Positions 1,215 through 47,746 of a DNA stretch of 64,000 nucleotides are shown here, piece after piece (position 1 is the first letter of the stretch; each line of letters opens with the position of its first letter). Location: the NCBI RefSeq assembly GCF_900177805.1, contig NZ_FXAX01000004.1:62001-126000 (forward strand), in the 5' to 3' direction. The translations under genes were made by a program, and so were the position numbers. This DNA is from Fibrobacter sp. UWB13. GTDB lineage: Bacteria > Fibrobacterota > Fibrobacteria > Fibrobacterales > Fibrobacteraceae. The notes under the pieces were generated by a model, which was not told where the DNA came from, ran no database searches, and was given only the letters and a program-made list of their open reading frames with translations.

Positions 1215-4200
1215 CTATTTTTTCAGGAGCATCACTTTTTCGGTCGCCTTGCCGTTCACTTGCAGCACGCCGATATAACGACCACGAGACAGGTTTTCGA
1301 CGGAGCGAGTTTCAAAATGCGTACCGGCAGAACGTTGTCCAAGATCAAGCAATTTCACCACTCGACCTTGCATGTCGATGAGCGAGAATTTCACCGCAGC
1401 AGCCGCAGGGATTTCAAAACGCACGGCGATGTCACCGCCTTGGAACACAGCACCGAGGGAATGCATCACCACGACATTGCGAACGCGAGCACCCGTTGTT
1501 TTTTCAATATCGATTTCTACCTTGGCAATTCTGCTCCAGAGCGTATCGGAATCGAAAAGCACACCCACTCGGTAAGAGACGATATACGTTCCGTAAGGAG
1601 CTTTTTCGTTTTCCAGAGAATCGAGCAAGACCTCACTTGCAGAATCCAGCTTAAGCACCTTTTTCGCCGCAGAATCCATCACGAAGGCGTTTTTAAGCAG
1701 TTCGGCGCGGATATTCTCCGCAAGAGGCTTTTCGCTATAGAAAAGTTCCCCATTTGAAACAACCGGCGGATTCAGCATGTTACGAAGCAGCGGGTAGCTC
1801 ACGCCCTCGGTGATGTACCAAACCGAGTCAAAGTTGAATGCTGCGAAAGACTTCTGCATTTTCATCTGTGCATCGGACAAACCCTTTCCTGTCATCAGCG
1901 AATCGCTGCAGGCTTCGGCTAAATAGTAATACTCATCCGAGGGATTCGTTCTTTTAGGCAAGCCATTGCAGAAATGGATTCCGTCTTTATACGCGCTTCC
2001 AGAAGCGTATCCTCTTACCTCTGCATCATTGCCGTTGATTTCGGCAAAGCCAAAACCATAGTACGGTTCTATAGAAAGCACATCACCCGTTGAATAGCAG
2101 TCTTCTATTACAGACTGGTTGTTATCGACAAAGCCGCCCGTGCCTTCGACATTTCCTGTAGAATAAGATTGCCGGATGGTTCCATCGTTTCCGCCGACAA
2201 AGCTAGCGGCTCTATACGCATTTCCGGTCGCAAACGAGCGCAAAACCAAGCCCTTGTTCTGGCCAACAAAAGCTCCAGAATAGCTGAATGTTCCCGTTCC
2301 CTCAGCGTTTCCGGTGGCATAGCATTCCGAAATAGTTGTTTCGTTCAAGCCGACCAAGCCGCCGACATAATGATCTCCAACAACATCAACGGATGCATGC
2401 AGTCCCTTCAGTCCCTTGCCGTAAGCCTTAGCAATCAGGCCACCTACGTAGAGGACTCCTTTTGCATTGATAACGCCCGACGCCGTAGAATTATTGACCG
2501 TTCCGCTATCGACTGCGACAAGGCCTGCAACGCCTTGCACGTTATAATATACCGAGATTTCCCCACCATCTTCGTAATAAATGGAGAAACCTTCTGAAGA
2601 TGATTTCTGTCCAGATACATCGACATTCACAGAGCTCTTATCAATCGTTCCACCAGGAGCATTTAACCCGGCAATGCCACCTACGAAGCCAGAGTTTTCC
2701 TTTACGTTCGCCTTAACAGAAACATTCTTGATGGTTCCCCAGTTCAGCGCGGCAACACCGGCGGCACTTGCACCCCCAATCCACTGCGCATCGATTTTGG
2801 CATTGGCAATGGTTCCGTAATTCAAGTGTGCAAAGCCAGATACGAGTCTGCCACCATTGATTTTTCCTTTAACCGATACATTCTCGATGGAACCATAGTT
2901 CCTGAACACGAACCCCGCACTTTGATAAACACTGTCCATCACAATGTCGACATCTACATTCCGGATAGCACCATGGTTCACCGTAGCAACGCCACCTATT
3001 TTCATTCCAAAGTCTTCGCGACCGACAGAATAGCCCTTGAAAGACAAACTATCTACGATTGCAGACTGCGCAACAGTATCGATAAATCCAATTGCCTTAT
3101 GATCCTTATCCCAAAATCCCGTAAACAAGCTGTCGATGCTATGACCGCCACCATGGAATTCGCCGGTAAAAGCACCGGTATCCTGTTTTGCGTAACCGCC
3201 AAGGACAACACCGTAACAGTTGCAGAATTCTTCCAACACATCGTACTTACCAATAGGCTTGAATCCTGTTCCACCGACAGCAAAACGTTCATCCGTCCTG
3301 GAAGCAGTGGCATCGATATCGTTAGCCAAGCGATAAACGGCCGACAACTTGTATTTTCCGAATCCGATTGATTTCAAGTCTCCGTAGGTCTTGATCAAGA
3401 ACGGGTCTTTTTCCGTACCGGAACCGGCCATTTTCATCATGGTCTGATCCACAGCCTGATTCGGATAAATCTTTTCCTTCATTGTCTTGGATATATAGTA
3501 AGGCTTAGTCAGCCACGACAAATAGGGATAAGTCGAATCTGCTGCGATCTTCCAGGTTGAATCGAAATCCCAGCCTTCGTAGTTTTCCTTCTTGACCATC
3601 TCTGTTGTATTGCGGAGATCCCCCGCAGCCGTCGTATTAACATACCAGAGTGTCGTATCATAATAGACCGAGGTGTAGGTCGACTTGTTGTCAGAGCCCG
3701 CAAGGCCACCCCATTTAGAATCGCCTACGACTTGACCTGCGGCAAACGAGTTCTTCACAGTCGCATTGTCCGAATAGCCCGCCAAGCCGCCGACATTCTT
3801 TGTTCCCACGATATTTGCAATCGAATAGCAGTCCGCGACACTCGCCTCGCCCAAAAAGCCCACGAGACCGCCCACGTTTTCCTTGCCCGAGACCAGGAAT
3901 CTAGAAGCGCTCCTCACGACAGAGCCTGCAGATTTCTTACCGGCAAGAGAGCCAACGTAATTTTCGCCAGAAACATCATACTTGATAAAGATGTTTTCGA
4001 CCGTAGCACCATTATCGACACCGGCCAGGACGCCGACATAGTTCTTACCACGGATGGCACCCCTAGTACGCGCAGGTCCATACGAATAGCTTTCTCCAAG
4101 ATACGAAGCCGTATCAAAGACAACATTGCTTACCTTGGCACCCTTCGCCAGAGCCCGGAAAAGTCCCACCGAATCTTCGTCGGGGCGATTGATATTCAAG

Positions 4201-28616: not shown

Positions 28617-28645
28617 AGAACACAAAGTCCGTATTCCAGGAATAC
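28617..28645. promoter_or_regulatory. Module B distal operator candidate
   Basis: AGAACAC at 28617-28623, then a perfect inverted repeat GTATTCC-A-GGAATAC at 28631-28645. Start-to-start distance of the AGAACAC and GGAATAC boxes is 22 bp, about two helix turns. Confidence 0.55.
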
Positions 28646-28658
28646 AATATTCAACCTA

Positions 28659-28706
28659 TTGACTTTCCAATTAACTTTTGGTATATTACTAAAAGTTAAT
28701 TGAGGT
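28659..28706 (+). promoter_or_regulatory. Sigma70-like promoter inside a perfect inverted repeat, upstream of the AAA ATPase
   Basis: TTGACT (28659-28664), 17 bp, TATATT (28682-28687). The -10 box sits in the 11-bp centre of the inverted repeat AATTAACTTTT (28669-28679) / AAAAGTTAATT (28691-28701), arms perfectly matched. A dimeric repressor bound here would block the promoter. GAGG (28702-28706) serves as ribosome site. Confidence 0.7.
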
Positions 28707-28710
28707 TATT

Positions 28711-29829
28711 ATGGAAAACCCGTTCTCTCTAGAGCCTTACACAACAAAAGAGAATTTCTGCGATCGAGAACAAGAACTCAAGGACATTATCTCCTTTTTA
28801 ACCAATGGTTCAAACGTCACATTAATTTCTCCAAGACGCTACGGCAAGACGGGTCTCATTTTCAGAACATTCGAGGACCTCAAGGAAAAACATTACACTT
28901 GCATTTACGCCGACATTTTTTTGGCGCAAAGTCTAGACGATTTTATCAAAATCTTGTCTGAAGCCATCGTCAGCTCCATAGCAAACGAGTCACTGATAAA
29001 AAAATTCTTCATTGCGCTCAAGAACGTTCGACCGCTTCTTAGTTATGACTCCATGTCAGGCAGCCCTCAAGTTACATTCACCTTCCAACTAGATGAACAA
29101 AAAAAGCTGACTTTAAAATCAATTTTCGACTTTCTCGAAAAACAAGAAAAACAAATTATCCTCGCCATCGACGAATTTCAACAAATCAGAGAATTCAAAG
29201 AAAAAATTACCGAAGCCTTACTACGAACATACACTCAGCAAATGCATCATGTAAAATTCATTTTCTGCGGTAGCAAAAAGCATTTGATGGCAGACATGTT
29301 TACCAACGCAAAGAAGCCCTTTTACGAAAGCTCCAGAACAATTCACATCGACCGTATCGATTCTGAGAAGTATAAGGAGTTTATTACACATCTATTTCAA
29401 AGAGCAGAAAAAAACATTGACGAAGATGCAGTTGATTTTATATTAGATTGGACAAAGCGGCATACCTATTACACTCAGTTTGTATGCAATAGAGTATTTG
29501 CAGAATCTTCAAAAAATATATCACTAGAAGATGTCAAAAAAACTATATCCAGCATTTTACGATTTGAAGTCCCAAACTTCATTGAACGCCGCAACCTGAT
29601 TACCGACAAACAGTGGAAATACCTTATCGCCGTTGCCAAGGAAGGCTCCGTAAAGCAACCAACAGCAAGCGCCTTCTTGATGAAATATGGCATAGGAAGC
29701 AGTGCCACCGCTAAAAAGATTCTTTCAACCCTTGTCGAAAAAGAACTATTGCTAGAACAAAGCGATTTAAGCGGCAAATCCTACAGCGTCTATAATGTAT
29801 TTATGTCCCGCTGGATGGAAACACTATAA
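28711..29829 (+). CDS. AAA/STAND-type ATPase
   Basis: 372 residues. N-terminal FCDREQELKDI is the entry motif of the archaeal-ATPase-like group (PF01637); Walker A is SPRRYGKTGLIF about residue 45; Walker B IILAIDEFQQI about residue 150; sensor-like FIFCGSKKHLM follows. The C-terminal third (ITDKQWKYLIAVAKEGSVKQ, then MKYGIGSSATAKKILSTLVE) looks like a winged helix. Such proteins are found in many gut bacteria; most are of unknown function, some linked to mobile or defence loci. It is the only plus-strand gene between 1 and 47 kb and separates modules C and B, converging with module C. Its sigma70-like promoter differs from the TAnnTTTG boxes of its neighbours, hinting at acquisition. Confidence 0.8.
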   Translation: MENPFSLEPYTTKENFCDREQELKDIISFLTNGSNVTLISPRRYGKTGLIFRTFEDLKEKHYTCIYADIFLAQSLDDFIKILSEAIVSSIANESLIKKFFIALKNVRPLLSYDSMSGSPQVTFTFQLDEQKKLTLKSIFDFLEKQEKQIILAIDEFQQIREFKEKITEALLRTYTQQMHHVKFIFCGSKKHLMADMFTNAKKPFYESSRTIHIDRIDSEKYKEFITHLFQRAEKNIDEDAVDFILDWTKRHTYYTQFVCNRVFAESSKNISLEDVKKTISSILRFEVPNFIERRNLITDKQWKYLIAVAKEGSVKQPTASAFLMKYGIGSSATAKKILSTLVEKELLLEQSDLSGKSYSVYNVFMSRWMETL

Positions 29830-29840
29830 AAAGAAGAAAT

Positions 29841-29864
29841 GCCTCCGCCATTCTAGGCGGAGGC
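29841..29864. terminator. Bidirectional terminator between the ATPase gene and module C
   Basis: Perfect 9-bp stem GCCTCCGCC / GGCGGAGGC with loop ATTCTA. On the minus strand it is followed by ATTTCTTCTTTTT; on the plus strand by a pyrimidine-rich stretch. Serves two convergent genes. Confidence 0.8.
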
Positions 29865-29886
29865 TGCTCTCTCTTCTAACAGTTAT

Positions 29887-31974: not shown

Positions 31975-34200
31975 CTAGTCCTTGACGCAACGAACACTCA
32001 GTGCATAGTGTTTGTAAAAAGCGTTCTTCTGATTTACTTCATCAGATGTAACTGTAAATGCGTATGAATTCTTTGTAACATTGCCAACCGGATTGCCCAA
32101 CGACTCTTCTGTCGAGCTCCAAAATGCAGCAGCAACATCAAGACTTTGGTAATTGCCAACATAACGGTTGCCTGCAGGAATTGCCGAAAAACTATAAATG
32201 TTCGTAGCATTGGACCATTTTTCATACCCTTTAGCTTGAATCACAGACGGAATCTCACCCACAGATTCATATAATGTTCCCCATTCTGTCGATGTCGGGA
32301 GATGCCATCCATCAGGGCAAACGCCTCTCACAACATTATTAAAGGATGAATACGACGATTCGTAACCACACCCCATGCAGTTTTGGCTGAACAAGGCAAG
32401 ACTATCAACCGCAGCGGCCCAAGTATACAAACGGCCATACTTTTCGCAATATTCAAGAGAATCATTGTAACAGAAGCTAGAGGAATCCAAACCATCCGAC
32501 GATTTATAAGCGTAATTCAAGTTTTCTGCCATCCAAATCTGATTACCGATTTTCAAAGTTTTGTAAGTTTGACCATCACGTTCGTCAGTCAACGTTCCTG
32601 CACTAATCGACGCAGCCCCTTTAATGCAGCGAACAGCTTGACCTCCAATAACATTATCACCACCCATGAGAGCCTCATCCGTTGTACGATGAAGTCCCAT
32701 ACCATAAGCACTAGTAGTACCAACAAAGTAAGAACTCCAAAAGAAAGCATAATCACCCCCATCAAAAAAGTCTTTGTTATACGCAACCCAGCGACCAGAA
32801 GGTAATGCCGAGAATCCATAAACATCATCGCCATTTCCACTTTCGTCTTTAAAGTCATTCCATCCACTCGTCGCCTTAAGCGCTTTCCCAGCAGATGATG
32901 AATCACCCGTTTCGGCAATCAAGATTTCCCATTCTTCCTTGCGAGGCAAATGCCAACCATCGGGGCAAATACCTTGAAAAACATCATCTCCCAAACGGCA
33001 ATACGAATTATCCGCATGAACGCCGCAATCTCTTGGATTCAATGAATCCGTAGCCAAGGCAACCGAGTCCATCGCCGCCGTCCATGTGTAAAGTCGGCCG
33101 TACTTATCGCAATATTCCGAAGAATCCTTGTAGCACCAACTTTTACCTTTTAAACTCGGCGTTTTAACGCTGTCGGCATAGTTCAAATTCTGCGCCATCC
33201 ACAATTGATTTCCAATTTTCACCGTTTTATAAACTTGTCCATCACGGGAGTCGACAATAGAATCGTATTTGATTTTGGGATTCAAGTAAGAGTCCCTTGT
33301 ACTGTCACTAGCCCCGGTTGATGAGCCAGTCGAATCATCACTAGAACTCTTAACAGCAGAAATAATCGATTCAAATGCAGGAACTTCATCAACGTAGCCC
33401 CAGCTTTCGATGTTTTTGCGAATAGAGTCAAGCGTTCCATTTGCCGCAGCAGAAGTAGCCCAATCCACCATTTCCGCTTTTGAGCCCTCATCAAGCGAGC
33501 CGTTCTTTGCAATTGTAGCAGAGTATTCATCCAGACGTTCTGCAATATTTGCATCGCCAGCGTTCGCCAGCATCATCACGCTTACCGCCAAGAGAGCAGC
33601 ATTGTCGTCACCCTTCTCAAAGATGTTCAGGTCTTCAAACTTTGAGGATTCCCCCTCGATATTAAACGCAGCAAGCACTTCTTTTTCGGCTTGTTTTTTC
33701 ACATCGGCAAAAGACATTTCTTTGCCAGCCGCAAGGTTCATCACGCGCCCATATTCCAAACTTGTGAGGACGTTAACGTTCACGCTATTACGATCCTTGA
33801 GATTTGTCAGCGTACGCAACGTCAACTTTTCTGAAGACTTTTCGCCAGTCACTTCGTTTAGGTAATAGCCCGTCACTTCAAACAATGCGCATGTAGAGGA
33901 AAGCGTCACATCGTCAAAAGTAAATTCGCCCTTGTCACTCTTGACAGTTTCTTCAAAGAATTCGTCTGTAAGCTTGAGTGTTTTGCAGTCCATGCCCTGC
34001 ACAGTCACAGTGGATCCCTTAATAAACGGTCCCTTCTGCGCCACACCCGCCACATCCAAGTCCTTGATGGCGACGATGCCTGCATCTCCCGAAGCGCCAC
34101 CAGCGACACCCTTGTCATCAGAACTGGAACATGCTGCTAAGAACGTCATAGAAGCAAGCGCACAAATTGACACCAGACGCGTTCTTAAATTGCGATTCAT
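31975..34200 (-). CDS. Surface lipoprotein with two Fib_succ_major domains (module C)
   Basis: About 741 residues. Signal MNRNLRTRLVSICALASMTF with lipobox LAAC. Shared N-terminal domain (VAGVAQKGPFIKGSTVTVQG, NEVTGEKSSEKLTL, IRKNIESWGYVDEVPAFE), short Ser/Thr linker, then two TIGR02145 domains (QLWMAQNLNYADSVKTPSLK...CPDGWHLPRKEEW; QIWMAENLNYAYKSSDGLDS...CPDGWHLPTSTEW), both ending VRC. The ATG at 34200 has GAGGAG 5 nt upstream; a second ATG at 34212 overlaps the regulator stop (ATGA). Either way it is coupled to the regulator. Confidence 0.87.
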   Translation of the reverse strand: MNRNLRTRLVSICALASMTFLAACSSSDDKGVAGGASGDAGIVAIKDLDVAGVAQKGPFIKGSTVTVQGMDCKTLKLTDEFFEETVKSDKGEFTFDDVTLSSTCALFEVTGYYLNEVTGEKSSEKLTLRTLTNLKDRNSVNVNVLTSLEYGRVMNLAAGKEMSFADVKKQAEKEVLAAFNIEGESSKFEDLNIFEKGDDNAALLAVSVMMLANAGDANIAERLDEYSATIAKNGSLDEGSKAEMVDWATSAAANGTLDSIRKNIESWGYVDEVPAFESIISAVKSSSDDSTGSSTGASDSTRDSYLNPKIKYDSIVDSRDGQVYKTVKIGNQLWMAQNLNYADSVKTPSLKGKSWCYKDSSEYCDKYGRLYTWTAAMDSVALATDSLNPRDCGVHADNSYCRLGDDVFQGICPDGWHLPRKEEWEILIAETGDSSSAGKALKATSGWNDFKDESGNGDDVYGFSALPSGRWVAYNKDFFDGGDYAFFWSSYFVGTTSAYGMGLHRTTDEALMGGDNVIGGQAVRCIKGAASISAGTLTDERDGQTYKTLKIGNQIWMAENLNYAYKSSDGLDSSSFCYNDSLEYCEKYGRLYTWAAAVDSLALFSQNCMGCGYESSYSSFNNVVRGVCPDGWHLPTSTEWGTLYESVGEIPSVIQAKGYEKWSNATNIYSFSAIPAGNRYVGNYQSLDVAAAFWSSTEESLGNPVGNVTKNSYAFTVTSDEVNQKNAFYKHYALSVRCVKD

Positions 34201-34208
34201 CACTCTCC

Positions 34209-35066
34209 TCATTTCATTTCTCCCTTTTTATTCGTCTTCTCGTTTTTAGATCCCAGCCATTCACTCAACGGGAACAATTGCACATTCAGGCGGTAGACCT
34301 GTTCCGTTTCGTCTTCCTCCGTCGCAATCGCCACCACGCGACGGTAATAATCTTCGGTCTCTTTCTTGATGCGTTCGTACGCACGGCGCGTAAGGCCAAG
34401 CGTGTATCCCGACATCATGCGTTCCGCAATCGGCAAGTCAATGGACTTAAGGGCAAATTCACCCATCTGGCGTTGCAAATCGCGTGCCGCCAGCGGCACG
34501 GCCTCTATAGGCGCCATCTTGATTGCCTTATCCGTCTGGTGGTAATTGCCGTCGCGGTCCTTTTTCAAAAGCTTCGCCTTTACCAAAAAATCGAGCGTCT
34601 CGGAAACCTCTGCCGCCGAAATCTTCGGTTTGCAGGCATGGGCAATTTCCAACGGCTTTGCGCCAGGCATGTGCGGAGCAAGTTCACGCAGCACCGGATT
34701 TTTCCACGACTTAAAATAATTGAATTCATCGCTCCCCAGCACACGCACTTTGTGTGCATTTGCAAGTGCATAGCGTTCCTCGAACGCAGCCTTTTTAGCC
34801 TCGTTGCTTTTTGCATGCGCATACGACACCATCAAGATAAAGTAATCGTACTCGAAACCGACCAGCCCCATCGCGGTCGCCACCGAGCCCGCCGACGCGA
34901 TACTCAGATTCTTTTTCCCCTCGCACACATACTTCAGGTACACATCCGACGAGAAACCCGCCTTCTGGGCAAACGCGTGCCACGAAAACGCGGAACAGCG
35001 CTTGCGTTCATCGTAGTAGTCCTGGATGAACTTGCGATAATCTGTATATTCAACGATTTCCTTCAT
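34209..35066 (-). CDS. TIGR02147/DUF4423 regulator of module C
   Basis: 285 residues from MKEIVEYTDYRKFIQDYYDE; an upstream in-frame ATG at 35144 would cross the promoter box and is rejected. HTH-like region SWHAFAQKAGFSSDVYLKYV, then CEGKKNLSIASAGSVATAMGL; wing-like LVKAKLLKKDRDGNYHQTDK; C-terminal YYRRVVAIATEEDETEQVYR, then LNVQLFPLSEWLG. Compared with the A and B regulators, the presumed recognition helix has Asp (SSDVYLKYV) where they have Ala, and the operator half-site changes from GGAATAC to AGAACAT. Confidence 0.88.
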   Translation of the reverse strand: MKEIVEYTDYRKFIQDYYDERKRCSAFSWHAFAQKAGFSSDVYLKYVCEGKKNLSIASAGSVATAMGLVGFEYDYFILMVSYAHAKSNEAKKAAFEERYALANAHKVRVLGSDEFNYFKSWKNPVLRELAPHMPGAKPLEIAHACKPKISAAEVSETLDFLVKAKLLKKDRDGNYHQTDKAIKMAPIEAVPLAARDLQRQMGEFALKSIDLPIAERMMSGYTLGLTRRAYERIKKETEDYYRRVVAIATEEDETEQVYRLNVQLFPLSEWLGSKNEKTNKKGEMK

Positions 35067-35134
35067 GTCTACAAATATACCTTTTCCAGCACTTTTAGAA
35101 CATAAAATTGGCGTTTTTAGCCAAATTTTACCAT
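35067..35134 (-). promoter_or_regulatory. Module C promoter region with proximal operator half-site
   Basis: TATATTTG on the minus strand at 35072-35079, 5 nt before the ATG. AGAACAT half-site at 35097-35103, at the same distance from the start codon as GGAATAC in A and B. The block at 35111-35134 is identical to that of module B. Confidence 0.5.
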
Positions 35135-38833: not shown

Positions 38834-39994
38834 CTAGCTCAAGCGGCTGATCATGTAACCAGCGCAAACTGCCGTACCAATCACGCCAGAGACGTTCGGG
38901 CCCATAGCGTGCATGAGGAGGAAGTTCTGCGGGTCATACTTGGCACCTTCAACCTGAGAAACACGGGCAGCCATCGGCACAGCGGAAACGCCTGCGGAAC
39001 CGATAAGCGGGTTCACCGGGTTCTTCGGAGAGCACTTGTTCATGATCTTTGCGAGGAGCAAACCGCCGAAAGTGGAGAAGCCAAAGGCAACCACACCCAT
39101 AGCGATGATCATGAGAGTCTGCGGCTTGAGGAAGATGTCAGCAGACATCGTGAGACCCACGGACGTGCCGAGGAAGATCGTCACAATGTTCATGAGTTCG
39201 TTCGAAGAAGTCTTCACGAGGCGTTCAACGACACCAGCTTCCTTGAAGATGTTGCCCATCATAAGCATGATGATAAGGGCAGAGGCATCCGGCACGACGA
39301 GCACGCAAACGATCATCACCATCACGGCAAACACGATGCGTTCGGCCTTGGAAACCTGGCGGAGAGCCTTCATGCGAATCTTGCGTTCAGCGTCGTTCGT
39401 CATAGCGCGCATGATAGGCGGCTGAATGAGCGGCACGAGAGCCATGTAGGTGTAAGCAGCAACGGCGATGGGGCCGATGAGGTGCTTAGCAAGCTTGTTC
39501 GCAGTGAAGATGGACGTCGGACCGTCAGCACCACCGATGATACCGATGGAAGCTGCTTCACCGAGCGTAAAGCCACCGAGAGCGACAGCTGCAAACATGG
39601 TCATGAACACGCCAAACTGTGCGCCACCACCAAGGATGAGCGTACGCGGATTAGCGATAAGCGGTCCAAAGTCCGTCATGGCACCCACGCCCAAGAAGAT
39701 GATGGGCGGGAAGAGTTCCAGATGGATACCCTGGCTGATGTAGTAGTAGAGACCGCCAGTCGGGCTGAACATACCTTCGATGCTCCAGCCACCGTCGTAG
39801 AACGCGACGGACGGGATGTTCACCGCAAGTGCACCGATAGCAATCGGCAAGAGCAGAAGCGGTTCGTATTTTTTGACAATCGCAAGGAACATCAACACGA
39901 AGCTCACGATCCACATGATTACCATCGGAACGGTAATCTGCGCGAATCCTGTGCTCGAGGCGAAGTCCGCGACTGAGTTAATAATTCCACTCAT
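38834..39994 (-). CDS. Sodium ion-translocating decarboxylase, beta subunit
   Basis: 386 residues, polytopic inner-membrane protein. It couples decarboxylation of a carboxybiotin carrier to Na+ export in oxaloacetate, methylmalonyl-CoA or glutaconyl-CoA decarboxylases. The conserved segment SIGIIGGADGPTSIFTANKL is present (Asp157, the Asp essential for Na+ transport in this family), as are LELFPPIIFLGVGAMTDFGP and FLGTSVGLTMSAD. Last gene of a three-gene operon, 14 bp after the biotin carrier. The carboxyltransferase alpha subunit is not in the window, so the substrate is not fixed; methylmalonyl-CoA or oxaloacetate would fit a succinate/propionate-type metabolism. Confidence 0.93.
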   Translation of the reverse strand: MSGIINSVADFASSTGFAQITVPMVIMWIVSFVLMFLAIVKKYEPLLLLPIAIGALAVNIPSVAFYDGGWSIEGMFSPTGGLYYYISQGIHLELFPPIIFLGVGAMTDFGPLIANPRTLILGGGAQFGVFMTMFAAVALGGFTLGEAASIGIIGGADGPTSIFTANKLAKHLIGPIAVAAYTYMALVPLIQPPIMRAMTNDAERKIRMKALRQVSKAERIVFAVMVMIVCVLVVPDASALIIMLMMGNIFKEAGVVERLVKTSSNELMNIVTIFLGTSVGLTMSADIFLKPQTLMIIAMGVVAFGFSTFGGLLLAKIMNKCSPKNPVNPLIGSAGVSAVPMAARVSQVEGAKYDPQNFLLMHAMGPNVSGVIGTAVCAGYMISRLS

Positions 39995-45811: not shown

Positions 45812-47299
45812 TTACAGCATCTTGCCAGTATCGAGGAAGCGGGTATGCATTTCAAATGCGCGGGAAAGTGCAAGTGGCAAATGGACACCCTTTGCATGCT
45901 TGAGACCGTACTCCAGGACATCCGTAAGTGCATCACGGTAATCCGGATGGGCACAGTTCTTGATAATCAGGCGGGCGCGTTCCTCGACAGGCAAACCGCG
46001 AAGGTCTGCAAGTCCCTGTTCCGTCACAAAGATCTGCGTATCGTGATCGGTATGGTCCACATGGCTCACGTAAGGCACAATGCTCGAAATCGCACCGCCC
46101 TTTGCCACAGACGGCGTAAGGAAAAATCCGAGAGCGCAATGGCGCGCAAAGTCAGCCGAACCGCCAATGCCGTTCATCATCGCCGAACCGCACACAAGCG
46201 AACTATTCACGTTGCCAAAGATATCCGCTTCTAGAGCCGTGTTCATAGAAATCACGCCCAAGCGACGAATCACATCAGGACTGTTACTCACTTCTTGCTG
46301 GCGGATAATGAAATGCTTTTTCCATTCCGCGCTATTTTCAACAAACTCTTTCTGTGCTGCCTGCGAAAGCGTCAAAGCCGTTCCAGAAGCAATGCCAAGC
46401 TTGCCCTTCTTCAAAAGCGGGAGCACCGCTTCCTGAATCACTTCAGTAAACAAGTCAATTTGTCCCAAGCGGTCATCGTCTGCCATAGCACAAAGCACCG
46501 CATTAGCGACCTTGCCCACACCGCTCTGGTACGCAAGTCCCTTCGGGAGCCTGCCATGCGATTCTTCGAACCGGATAAAGTCCAAGATGCGTTCGCCAAT
46601 GTTTTTAGAGACTTCATCAGGTTCCACAAAAGGAGTCACTTCGTCATACGCTTCGTTTTCGACAATCGCAATGACCTTGTTCGGGTCAATCTGAACAAAT
46701 TCACCACCCACGCGGTCACCGGCGCTATAAATCGCAAGCGGCCTTGCATGCGGCGGGAGTTCCGGGAGAGCGTTATCATGCATGCCAATGCAACTATCGC
46801 CCAAGCGTGTGTTCAGTTCCAAGATGATTTTCGGAGCCATTTCCAGATAGCAAACGGAATTACCGCCCGAAGTCGAGAGGCAAACGCGGCCATCCGGCAA
46901 AATCGCAGAAACTTCAATAATCGCAACCGTCGGCGCAGGGACAGCCCCCGTGCGAACAAGGTAACCCATCTTGCCGAGGTGTGCATCAATGTAACGGATA
47001 CTGCCGTCGTTAATTGCCTTGCGCAAACTCGGATTGGACTGATAAGGCATACGGAGGGACAACGCCTTTGCGCGAGCAAGAGCCCCATCACAACTATCGC
47101 CTGTCGAGGCGCCTGCAAACAACGTTACCTTAAATTCCTGACCTGCTTCGTGCAATTTTTCAGCGCGCGCAGCAAGCGCCAAGGGAACCGCTTTGGGGTA
47201 TCCTGCCAAAGTAAATCCGGAAACCCCGAGAACATCGCCATTACGAATCATATCTGCAGCGCTGGCAGCACTGCATTTCTTAGTTGTAATCCAGGTCAT
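45812..47299 (-). CDS. Acetyl-CoA hydrolase/transferase family (probably succinyl-CoA:acetate or similar CoA-transferase)
   Basis: About 495 residues. Family I CoA-transferase of the Cat1/AarC type, which moves CoA between acetate, succinate or propionate. Visible motifs: GVSGFTLAGYPKAVP near the N-terminus, CLSTSGGNS, AIVENEAYDEVTPFVEPDEV, the QSGVGKVANAV loop, GIGGSADFARHC and GGAISSIVPYVSHVDHTDHD, VTEQGLADLRGLPVEERA, NCAHPDYRDAL. The ATG at 47299 (MTWITTKK) is used because the longer frame to 47407 would overlap the divergent GtrA gene. In a succinate/acetate-forming organism it would act in acetate formation. Confidence 0.88.
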   Translation of the reverse strand: MTWITTKKCSAASAADMIRNGDVLGVSGFTLAGYPKAVPLALAARAEKLHEAGQEFKVTLFAGASTGDSCDGALARAKALSLRMPYQSNPSLRKAINDGSIRYIDAHLGKMGYLVRTGAVPAPTVAIIEVSAILPDGRVCLSTSGGNSVCYLEMAPKIILELNTRLGDSCIGMHDNALPELPPHARPLAIYSAGDRVGGEFVQIDPNKVIAIVENEAYDEVTPFVEPDEVSKNIGERILDFIRFEESHGRLPKGLAYQSGVGKVANAVLCAMADDDRLGQIDLFTEVIQEAVLPLLKKGKLGIASGTALTLSQAAQKEFVENSAEWKKHFIIRQQEVSNSPDVIRRLGVISMNTALEADIFGNVNSSLVCGSAMMNGIGGSADFARHCALGFFLTPSVAKGGAISSIVPYVSHVDHTDHDTQIFVTEQGLADLRGLPVEERARLIIKNCAHPDYRDALTDVLEYGLKHAKGVHLPLALSRAFEMHTRFLDTGKML

Positions 47300-47329
47300 A
47301 TCGTAGCAAAAAATAGTATTTTTACCGCC

Positions 47330-47746
47330 GTGAAACATTTTATCAAATACAACGCTATCGGTGTAATGAACACCGCCATTACATTCTTTACAGTCTGGCT
47401 TTTGCACGAAGTTTTTGACTGGGACGTGGTTCTTTCAAACTTTTTGGGATTTGTCGCCGGTGGGCTCAACAGCTACATCATGAACCGCATCTGGAATTTC
47501 AAGAGCACAAACAAGAAGCGCGCCGAAGTCATAAGATTCATCGTTGTATTTCTCTGCTCGTATCTCGTAAACTTGGTAGTCCTCAAAGGGTGCATTTACG
47601 TGCTCGAAAACGCCGCCTGGTGCGCCAGCTTCACAGAATTCGTTTCAAAGTTCATGAAGCCGACGACATTCGCAAGCTTCGTCGCCAACGTCGTCTACGT
47701 GCTTGTCAGCTTCACGCTCTATAAGAAGTGGGTATTTAAGAAGTAG
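47330..47746 (+). CDS. GtrA-like membrane protein
   Basis: 138 residues from a GTG start (KHFIKYNAIGVMNTAITFFT). Four membrane segments: MNTAITFFTVWLLHEV, VLSNFLGFVAGGLNSYIMNR, FIVVFLCSYLVNLVVLKG and FASFVANVVYVLVSFTLYK. It ends with the family's KKWVF signature, and YIMNRIWNF is typical. GtrA proteins are thought to flip or present lipid-linked sugars for surface glycan modification. The start lies 30 bp from the divergent CoA-transferase start. The open frame upstream of the GTG is antisense to the CoA-transferase and is not real. Confidence 0.85.
   Translation: MKHFIKYNAIGVMNTAITFFTVWLLHEVFDWDVVLSNFLGFVAGGLNSYIMNRIWNFKSTNKKRAEVIRFIVVFLCSYLVNLVVLKGCIYVLENAAWCASFTEFVSKFMKPTTFASFVANVVYVLVSFTLYKKWVFKK

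Follow-up and report, generated by a model that had tools for sequence, protein, structure and literature searches.

The window analysed here, a 64-kb stretch of DNA from a rumen bacterium whose closest named relatives are Fibrobacter assemblies, raises the question of what controls a plus-strand ATPase gene (28711-29829; 372 aa) with a long inverted repeat lying across its promoter. According to the preliminary description, the first 47 kb contain no other gene on the plus strand. This is plausible: five other plus-strand ORFs were tested by Pfam (32-496, 833-1210, 34167-35105, 38909-39976 and 46295-47746), and only the last one, at the edge, had a match and was identified as GtrA. The locus is surrounded by Fib_succ_major and TIGR02147 genes; its left neighbour is a divergent gene matching TIGR02147 (TIGR02147/DUF4423) at E 5e-100 in NCBIfam, and its right neighbour is a minus-strand gene. 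We consider it likely that the product is an autoregulating STAND/Orc-like ATPase of the PF01637 family, whose winged helix would bind a private operator array that accompanies the gene. Autoregulation would probably be autorepression rather than activation.

The TTGACT-17-TATATT promoter that had been proposed is present at 28659-28687, with a -35 box TTGACT (28659-28664) and a -10 box TATATT (28682-28687) on the plus strand, both recognized by consensus match only and separated by 17 nt. Such a match alone is weak evidence for a promoter, since five promoter-like sites were observed in 1.6 kb where 3.1 were expected and this pair of boxes, 17 nt apart, occurred 11 times in the 3.8-Mb genome. 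The inverted repeat was also present, but not in the form first given. It had been described as 11-bp arms with an 11-bp centre (28669-28701), and this description is superseded by 16-nt arms at 28668-28683 and 28687-28702, which are 94% complementary with one mismatch and enclose a 3-nt TAT centre (28668-28702, without strand); the same repeat can be read as 12 perfect pairs around an 11-nt centre. No second repeat of either grade (12 perfect pairs, or 16-nt arms with at most one mismatch) was found in the window. In 10 dinucleotide shuffles of the window, the 12 perfect pairs never occurred, while the 16-nt arms with at most one mismatch appeared 0, 0, 0, 1, 0, 0, 0, 0, 0 and 2 times. The -10 box and the expected transcription start lie within the repeat, which also reaches the edge of the ribosome site, a probable GAGG at 28702-28705 on the plus strand. 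Two units can be recognized within this putative operator, namely ACTTTTGGT at 28674-28682, a dyad of the form ACY-NNN-RGT, and ACTAAAAGT at 28688-28696, 14 bp from the first; neither has a strand. The unit structure was deduced from the two- and three-unit versions in the window's clade (clade A), and the 14-bp pitch came from the survey of homologues described below. A repeat of this kind could work as RNA, either as a leader hairpin or as a terminator/attenuator, and it does score as a terminator-like hairpin of 16 pairs. However, a start from the proposed promoter would fall inside the repeat, so that the 5' arm would not be transcribed, and no clear T run was seen in the tail. We regard an RNA element as highly improbable.

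The protein matched PF01637 (ATPase_2) over residues 16-243 with an E value of 1.1e-18 and 68.4 bits, against a curated cut-off of 33.2. In alignments, the Walker A and B motifs read PRRYGKTGL and AIDEFQ, and R42, G45 and K46 as well as D154 and E155 were invariant. The AlphaFold2 model (pLDDT 92.8, pTM 0.88) shows lid helices at about 215-294 and a winged helix at about 295-372, the third helix of which covers residues 331-343; the preliminary description had also read an AAA ATPase with a C-terminal winged-helix-like part. The nearest solved folds were two archaeal ATPases, PABY2304 (2qen, Z 24.9) and SSO1545 (2fna, Z 24.0), which belong to the same PF01637 family by sequence also (E 1e-13 and 1e-18, respectively). 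These were followed by Orc1/Cdc6 (Z 18-19), TnsC (about 17), plant NLRs (about 16), MuB filaments (15.3) and CED-4 (about 15). From the model and its fold neighbours, the protein is predicted to be an AAA+ STAND/Orc-type core with a helical lid and a C-terminal winged helix. PF01637 proteins are widespread: profile matches were found in 14/14 control genomes, some of them below the cut-off, and exceeded the cut-off in six; such proteins are usually annotated just as 'ATP-binding protein'. As for an anti-phage defence system, PADLOC gave matches that were partial and too weak to support it (PDC-S01 2e-05, PDC-S27 5e-08).

The preliminary description had taken the gene to be inserted between modules. 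The gene is not fixed at this site among related genomes. Relatives of the TIGR02147 left neighbour occurred in 47/80 genomes of the genus at the E limit used, and nine such loci from genomes without the clade-A gene were compared, five of which were the closest (85-95%). In all nine, homology with the window stops at 28642-28647, which is 11-16 bp before the -35 box. In one of these genomes (G072), the left flank (to 28646) joins sequence matching 29837-29884, so that 28647-29836 is cleanly absent; gene-less genomes resume at the terminator-like hairpin of the right-hand minus-strand gene (29841-29864, minus strand). This comparison delimits a presence/absence unit at 28648-29836 on the plus strand, holding the promoter, the operator and the ATPase ORF. 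The clade-A operator core, with at most one mismatch, was found in 13/80 genomes with one copy in each, and the window operator occurs once in its own genome. Eleven of the 13 sites lie at an intact gene, one beside a 5' gene fragment near a contig end (G061), and one at a deletion scar (G052), where the promoter, operator and ATG are kept, only the ORF is gone and the terminator of the next gene follows directly. G052 is a case of loss, while the distribution as a whole would fit gain in certain lineages as well as loss elsewhere. At L048, which has a different left flank, homology with most other clade-A loci begins about -66 to -70 from the ATG, which marks the same left edge of the unit, and homology with the window at -31. 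The operator lies over the promoter of its gene, is unique in the genome and follows the gene; as judged from these alignments, the ORF comes and goes together with its promoter and operator, in a minimal unit of about 1.2 kb. A transposon or insertion element was rejected: the sole ORF of the unit is the ATPase, the unit ends are not repeated in the window and no target duplication is apparent.

The same comparison bears on whether the palindrome belongs to another regulator, for example the divergent TIGR02147/DUF4423 neighbour or a global factor. The TIGR02147 gene is divergent here, and the DNA homology of nine other clade-A loci extends into that gene, as would suit such a regulator. However, all nine TIGR02147 relatives without the ATPase were also without the operator, homology ending just ahead of it, and arrays were present at homologues with different mapped neighbours. 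Moreover, the operator core is single-copy per genome, unlike the site of a global regulator, and its sequence shifts with the ATPase clade. We therefore think it very unlikely that the palindrome serves a regulator other than the ATPase. The upstream region of the TIGR02147 neighbour ends with a different palindrome, GTATTCCAGGAATAC (28631-28645, without strand), which is retained, with variants, in the gene-less genomes. Palindromes of this GTATTCC-N-GGAATAC type, with relatives in L299-L303, stand at the end of the region upstream of TIGR02147 genes and could serve these genes as their own operator.

If the ATPase binds its own promoter, the palindrome found in the window was expected, following the preliminary description, upstream of homologues as well. 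Within the genus, a protein match was obtained in 54/80 genomes. We collected 170 homologue upstream regions, of which 163 were usable, and kept one per 70%-identity cluster, giving 57 homologues that span Fibrobacterota, Bacteroidota and plasmids of other phyla. The controls were 125 promoters of other ORFs at the same loci, with G+C unmatched. Excluded from this 57/125 count were L090, L091, L098, L183, L202 and L209 (truncated, misassigned start, or lacking upstream DNA) and L247 (too little upstream sequence); from one set of 80 loci, 61 entered the survey, 18 Fibrobacter loci being omitted as already covered and L283 as cut. Ahead of the start codon, 44/57 homologues vs 16/125 control promoters had a strong palindrome or an array of 14/15-bp repeats, and 13/57 homologues had neither. 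A best self-match period of 14 or 15 with a score of at least 9 was found in 26/57 homologues and 2/125 controls. Inverted repeats were scored too because the window operator does not pass the direct-period test, its best period being 12 with a score of 7, and qualifies as an inverted repeat only; scores of at least 10 were reached by 26/57 homologues vs 11/125 controls, and scores of at least 13 by 17/57 vs 2/125. For spacings of 14 and 15 bp, the mean best-run score was 7.84 and 6.09 in the 57 homologues, against 3.85 and 3.84 in the controls, whereas at other spacings it was about 3.2-4.7, the next highest values being 4.72 at 28 and 4.62 at 30. The self-similarity of the controls was flat across spacings, while that of the homologues peaked at 14 and 15 bp. 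The 44 operators had a median extent of -66.5 to -28 from the start codon, with ends between -73 and -5. The expected palindromes or dyad arrays do occur at the promoters of homologues; the place and architecture of the site are conserved, and its sequence is clade-specific.

Similar repeats were found in a second, longer PF01637 sub-family, presumably DUF234. Two such genes are present in the window's own genome, with repeats before their starts. Relatives of one of them gave 14 non-redundant loci, for which start codons were estimated and the controls were shared with the survey of 57 homologues; an inverted repeat scoring at least 10 was found in 11, a 14/15-bp period in 4, and at least one of the two in 13. 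At L328, one of the longer PF01637 genes has a 15-bp array (2105-2165, minus strand) that reaches its start codon, and gene callers choosing an upstream GTG translate the array as VNNFKVNNFGVN.

Among full-length homologues, the operator architecture is related while the sequence differs from clade to clade. The dyads of clade A are ACY-NNN-RGT, with two units in the window and three in L044 to L048. The 54-58% clade has ACA-NNN-TGT, and other clades have CTA-NNN-TAG, GCA-NNN-TGC or TCC-N5-GGA. Short dyads thus appear to be arrayed at these sites, with a pitch of 14 bp, or 15 bp in some clades. Up to six tandem copies were seen (L177 and L187, those of L187 being 15-bp copies), and the pattern extends to Bacteroidota and to a Vibrio plasmid homologue with three 14-bp copies (L296). 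In many homologues, L187 and L296 among them, direct repeats stand without a strong inverted repeat, and no single hairpin would be expected there, which argues further against an RNA element. The array of some clades is placed ahead of the -10 box rather than over it. The promoters of L051 and L053 are related, one having a 14-bp unit more than the other, as if slippage or recombination altered the length of the array.

If operator and protein changed together, their similarities should be correlated at the residues that read DNA. This was examined in the 71/88 sequences with a called operator, with ATPase-domain identity partialled out. For residues 328-345, the recognition-helix stretch, the association with operator similarity had a partial r of 0.197, a value reached by 0/500 permutations, whereas the whole winged helix beyond the ATPase domain gave 0.034 (98/500 permutations) and the lid 0.033 (105/500). 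Shared ancestry was incompletely removed, because the ATPase domain kept a partial r of 0.112 given the winged helix (2/500 permutations). Among 345 columns, the top two were 336 and 332, with z of 3.7 and 3.6, or 5.1 and 3.0 by the k-mer measure, and column 330 was within the top ten by both measures. Three of the ten top columns fell inside the 14-column helix (hypergeometric p 0.005). In single-phylum tests, 336 remained in the top ten and the enrichment was not significant (p 0.34 and 0.08); in Fibrobacterota alone, the leading columns were 140, 292 and 300. This covariation of operator and recognition helix gives indirect support to a reading of the palindrome by the C-terminal winged helix; such an association would be unexpected for an RNA element. 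Sites also differ between paralogues of one genome. For example, G069 has six protein matches with sites of at least five kinds, yet two of these paralogues, L072 and L077, are related and their sites are almost alike, so that orthogonality among paralogues is likely but incomplete.

It may be asked whether regulation is the chief role of these arrays. They could mainly serve DNA-filament nucleation, or mobility or maintenance in the manner of an iteron or centromere (cf. TnsC/MuB and Orc/Rep), with autoregulation as a by-product. Several findings agree with this: the fold neighbours include Orc1/Cdc6, TnsC and MuB filaments at the Z scores given above, the six-copy arrays of L177 and L187 are iteron-like, and the unit is cleanly present or absent. 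In addition, most loci of the 54-58% clade carry an identical second array after the gene, which includes the stop codon. The motif of this second array (clade B) occurs at 40 sites in 27/80 genomes, while its backward control pattern gave 0 sites; 22 of the sites flank 11 genes, and the remaining 18 are without a gene. However, the unit holds no transposase, integrase or replication gene and its ends are promoter and stop; second arrays are confined to few loci, none being found in the 70 nt after the window's stop; and arrays within 120 bp of the start codon are enriched relative to the controls. A role chiefly in filament nucleation, mobility or maintenance thus appears unlikely to us, and autoregulation remains our preferred reading.

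On this preferred reading of an autoregulating ATPase, the C-terminal winged helix would dock on the private operator over its own promoter. In the window, the two ACY-NNN-RGT units 14 bp apart would form the 35-bp palindrome over the -10 box, the start and the ribosome site, and RNA polymerase would be blocked by a dimer or by a larger assembly that binds cooperatively. Expression would then drop as the protein accumulates, which would limit the protein's own level. The nucleotide state would probably tune operator binding, by analogy with RepA (see next). We infer binding, repression, nucleotide control and the form of the oligomer; autoactivation would also fit, notably where the array precedes the -10 box instead of covering it. 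As for the output of the ATPase, we guess, with rather low confidence, at a sensor or switch of STAND type that belongs to the accessory genome.

A self-repressing ATPase with its own operator is of an already known kind, and ParA proteins, whose fold is that of a deviant Walker A ATPase, are among the closest comparisons. As described in the relevant passages of the source, type Ia ParA/SopA of plasmids F, P1 and P7 is a winged helix-turn-helix ATPase that represses itself at repeated or inverted promoter motifs; operators are dissimilar between related systems, assembly is cooperative and involves several dimers (three on the promoter), and the F motifs are 28 bp apart (PMC8465637). The window ATPase resembles it in combining an ATPase and a winged helix with repeated or inverted motifs at its own promoter. 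However, the wHTH of type Ia ParA is N-terminal (PMC8465637) and its operon includes parB and a centromere, whereas the window ATPase is AAA+/Orc-like, with a C-terminal winged helix, a single gene and a 14/15-bp pitch. No parB was seen at the locus, its neighbours being the TIGR02147 and minus-strand genes, which places the protein outside ParA Ia. RepA of repABC plasmids is reported, in the passages concerned, to bind its own operator specifically with ADP, and RepA paralogues in one cell each autorepress via their own palindrome near the start codon with no cross-binding (PMC4492784). Unlike the window ATPase, RepA is of ParA type and acts with RepB, and its orthogonality was demonstrated by EMSA, whereas here it is deduced from sequence (PMC4492784). 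By analogy, the window ATPase may work like the ParA-Ia/RepA autorepressors without being a member of either.

A literature search on SSO1545 and PABY2304 found no study of their operators. IniR, a mycobacterial STAND-like protein, has an ATPase domain likened to SSO1545 and a C-terminal DNA-binding domain, and binds a promoter; it differs in its length of 818 aa, its MalT-like sensor domain and its activation of another operon, iniBAC, and action at its own promoter is not described in the relevant part of that source (PMC5760070). Orc1/Cdc6 initiators (2qby, 2v1u) share the AAA+ core, the C-terminal winged helix and sequence-specific DNA contact; the window ATPase has about 12-14% sequence identity to them, and no origin-like or replication context was seen at the locus. 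In a literature search covering few subscription journals, neither a paper on operators of PF01637 proteins nor a description of an AAA+/STAND single-gene version with a 14/15-bp pitch across phyla was found.

More broadly, and with confidence that falls a little short of even, bacterial PF01637 ATPases may be a large self-addressed DNA-binding family with private dyad arrays of fixed 14- or 15-bp pitch over their own promoters. Operator and recognition helix would re-tune together and keep paralogues orthogonal, and promoter, array and ORF would make a minimal cassette that can move or be lost. A 14-bp pitch rotates successive units by about 120 degrees round the helix and would suit a spiral AAA+ assembly over side-by-side dimers. 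In several bacterial groups, most relatives have sites of their own that differ from one another and yet are built alike, suggesting that each protein switches itself off. A self-specific operator array would give PF01637 proteins their first testable function, and a DNA ligand for biochemistry and structure. The dozens of natural protein-operator pairs are a source for a winged-helix recognition code, and they could offer orthogonal autorepressor parts and a route to ask which signal lifts repression.

The clade-B sites without a gene deserve separate mention. Those at L106, L116 and L119 keep a piece resembling the gene start and look like scars, and several lone sites directly precede an ORF that we read as L,D-transpeptidase-like; lone sites may be an insertion target or a relic. 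The array resembles the centre of the chromosome-dimer site, and a dif/Xer site was considered and rejected: dif-like matches in the window's own genome numbered 17 forward and 16 reverse vs 14 and 24 for the backward control, and the clade-B site is absent from 53/80 genomes. The window's own genome has a lone clade-B array, AACATTTTGTATATTACAAAATGTT, without an ATPase at L150 (G000:C1:377539-377563); by our reading of the sequences, it is flanked by a HicB-like antitoxin and an L,D-transpeptidase, and the same flank pair recurs in other genomes. L150 is one of several loci (with L050, L054, L055, L056, L058, L142, L144, L146, L147 and L151) in a variable region beside genes read as leuC/leuD, where one L,D-transpeptidase-like family is present in many copies and, along with small genes of toxin-antitoxin-like kind, is mixed between genomes. 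Outside the genus, the plasmid homologues L291 and L297, in Bacteroides and Sulfurimonas, adjoin or lie near a site-specific integrase gene.
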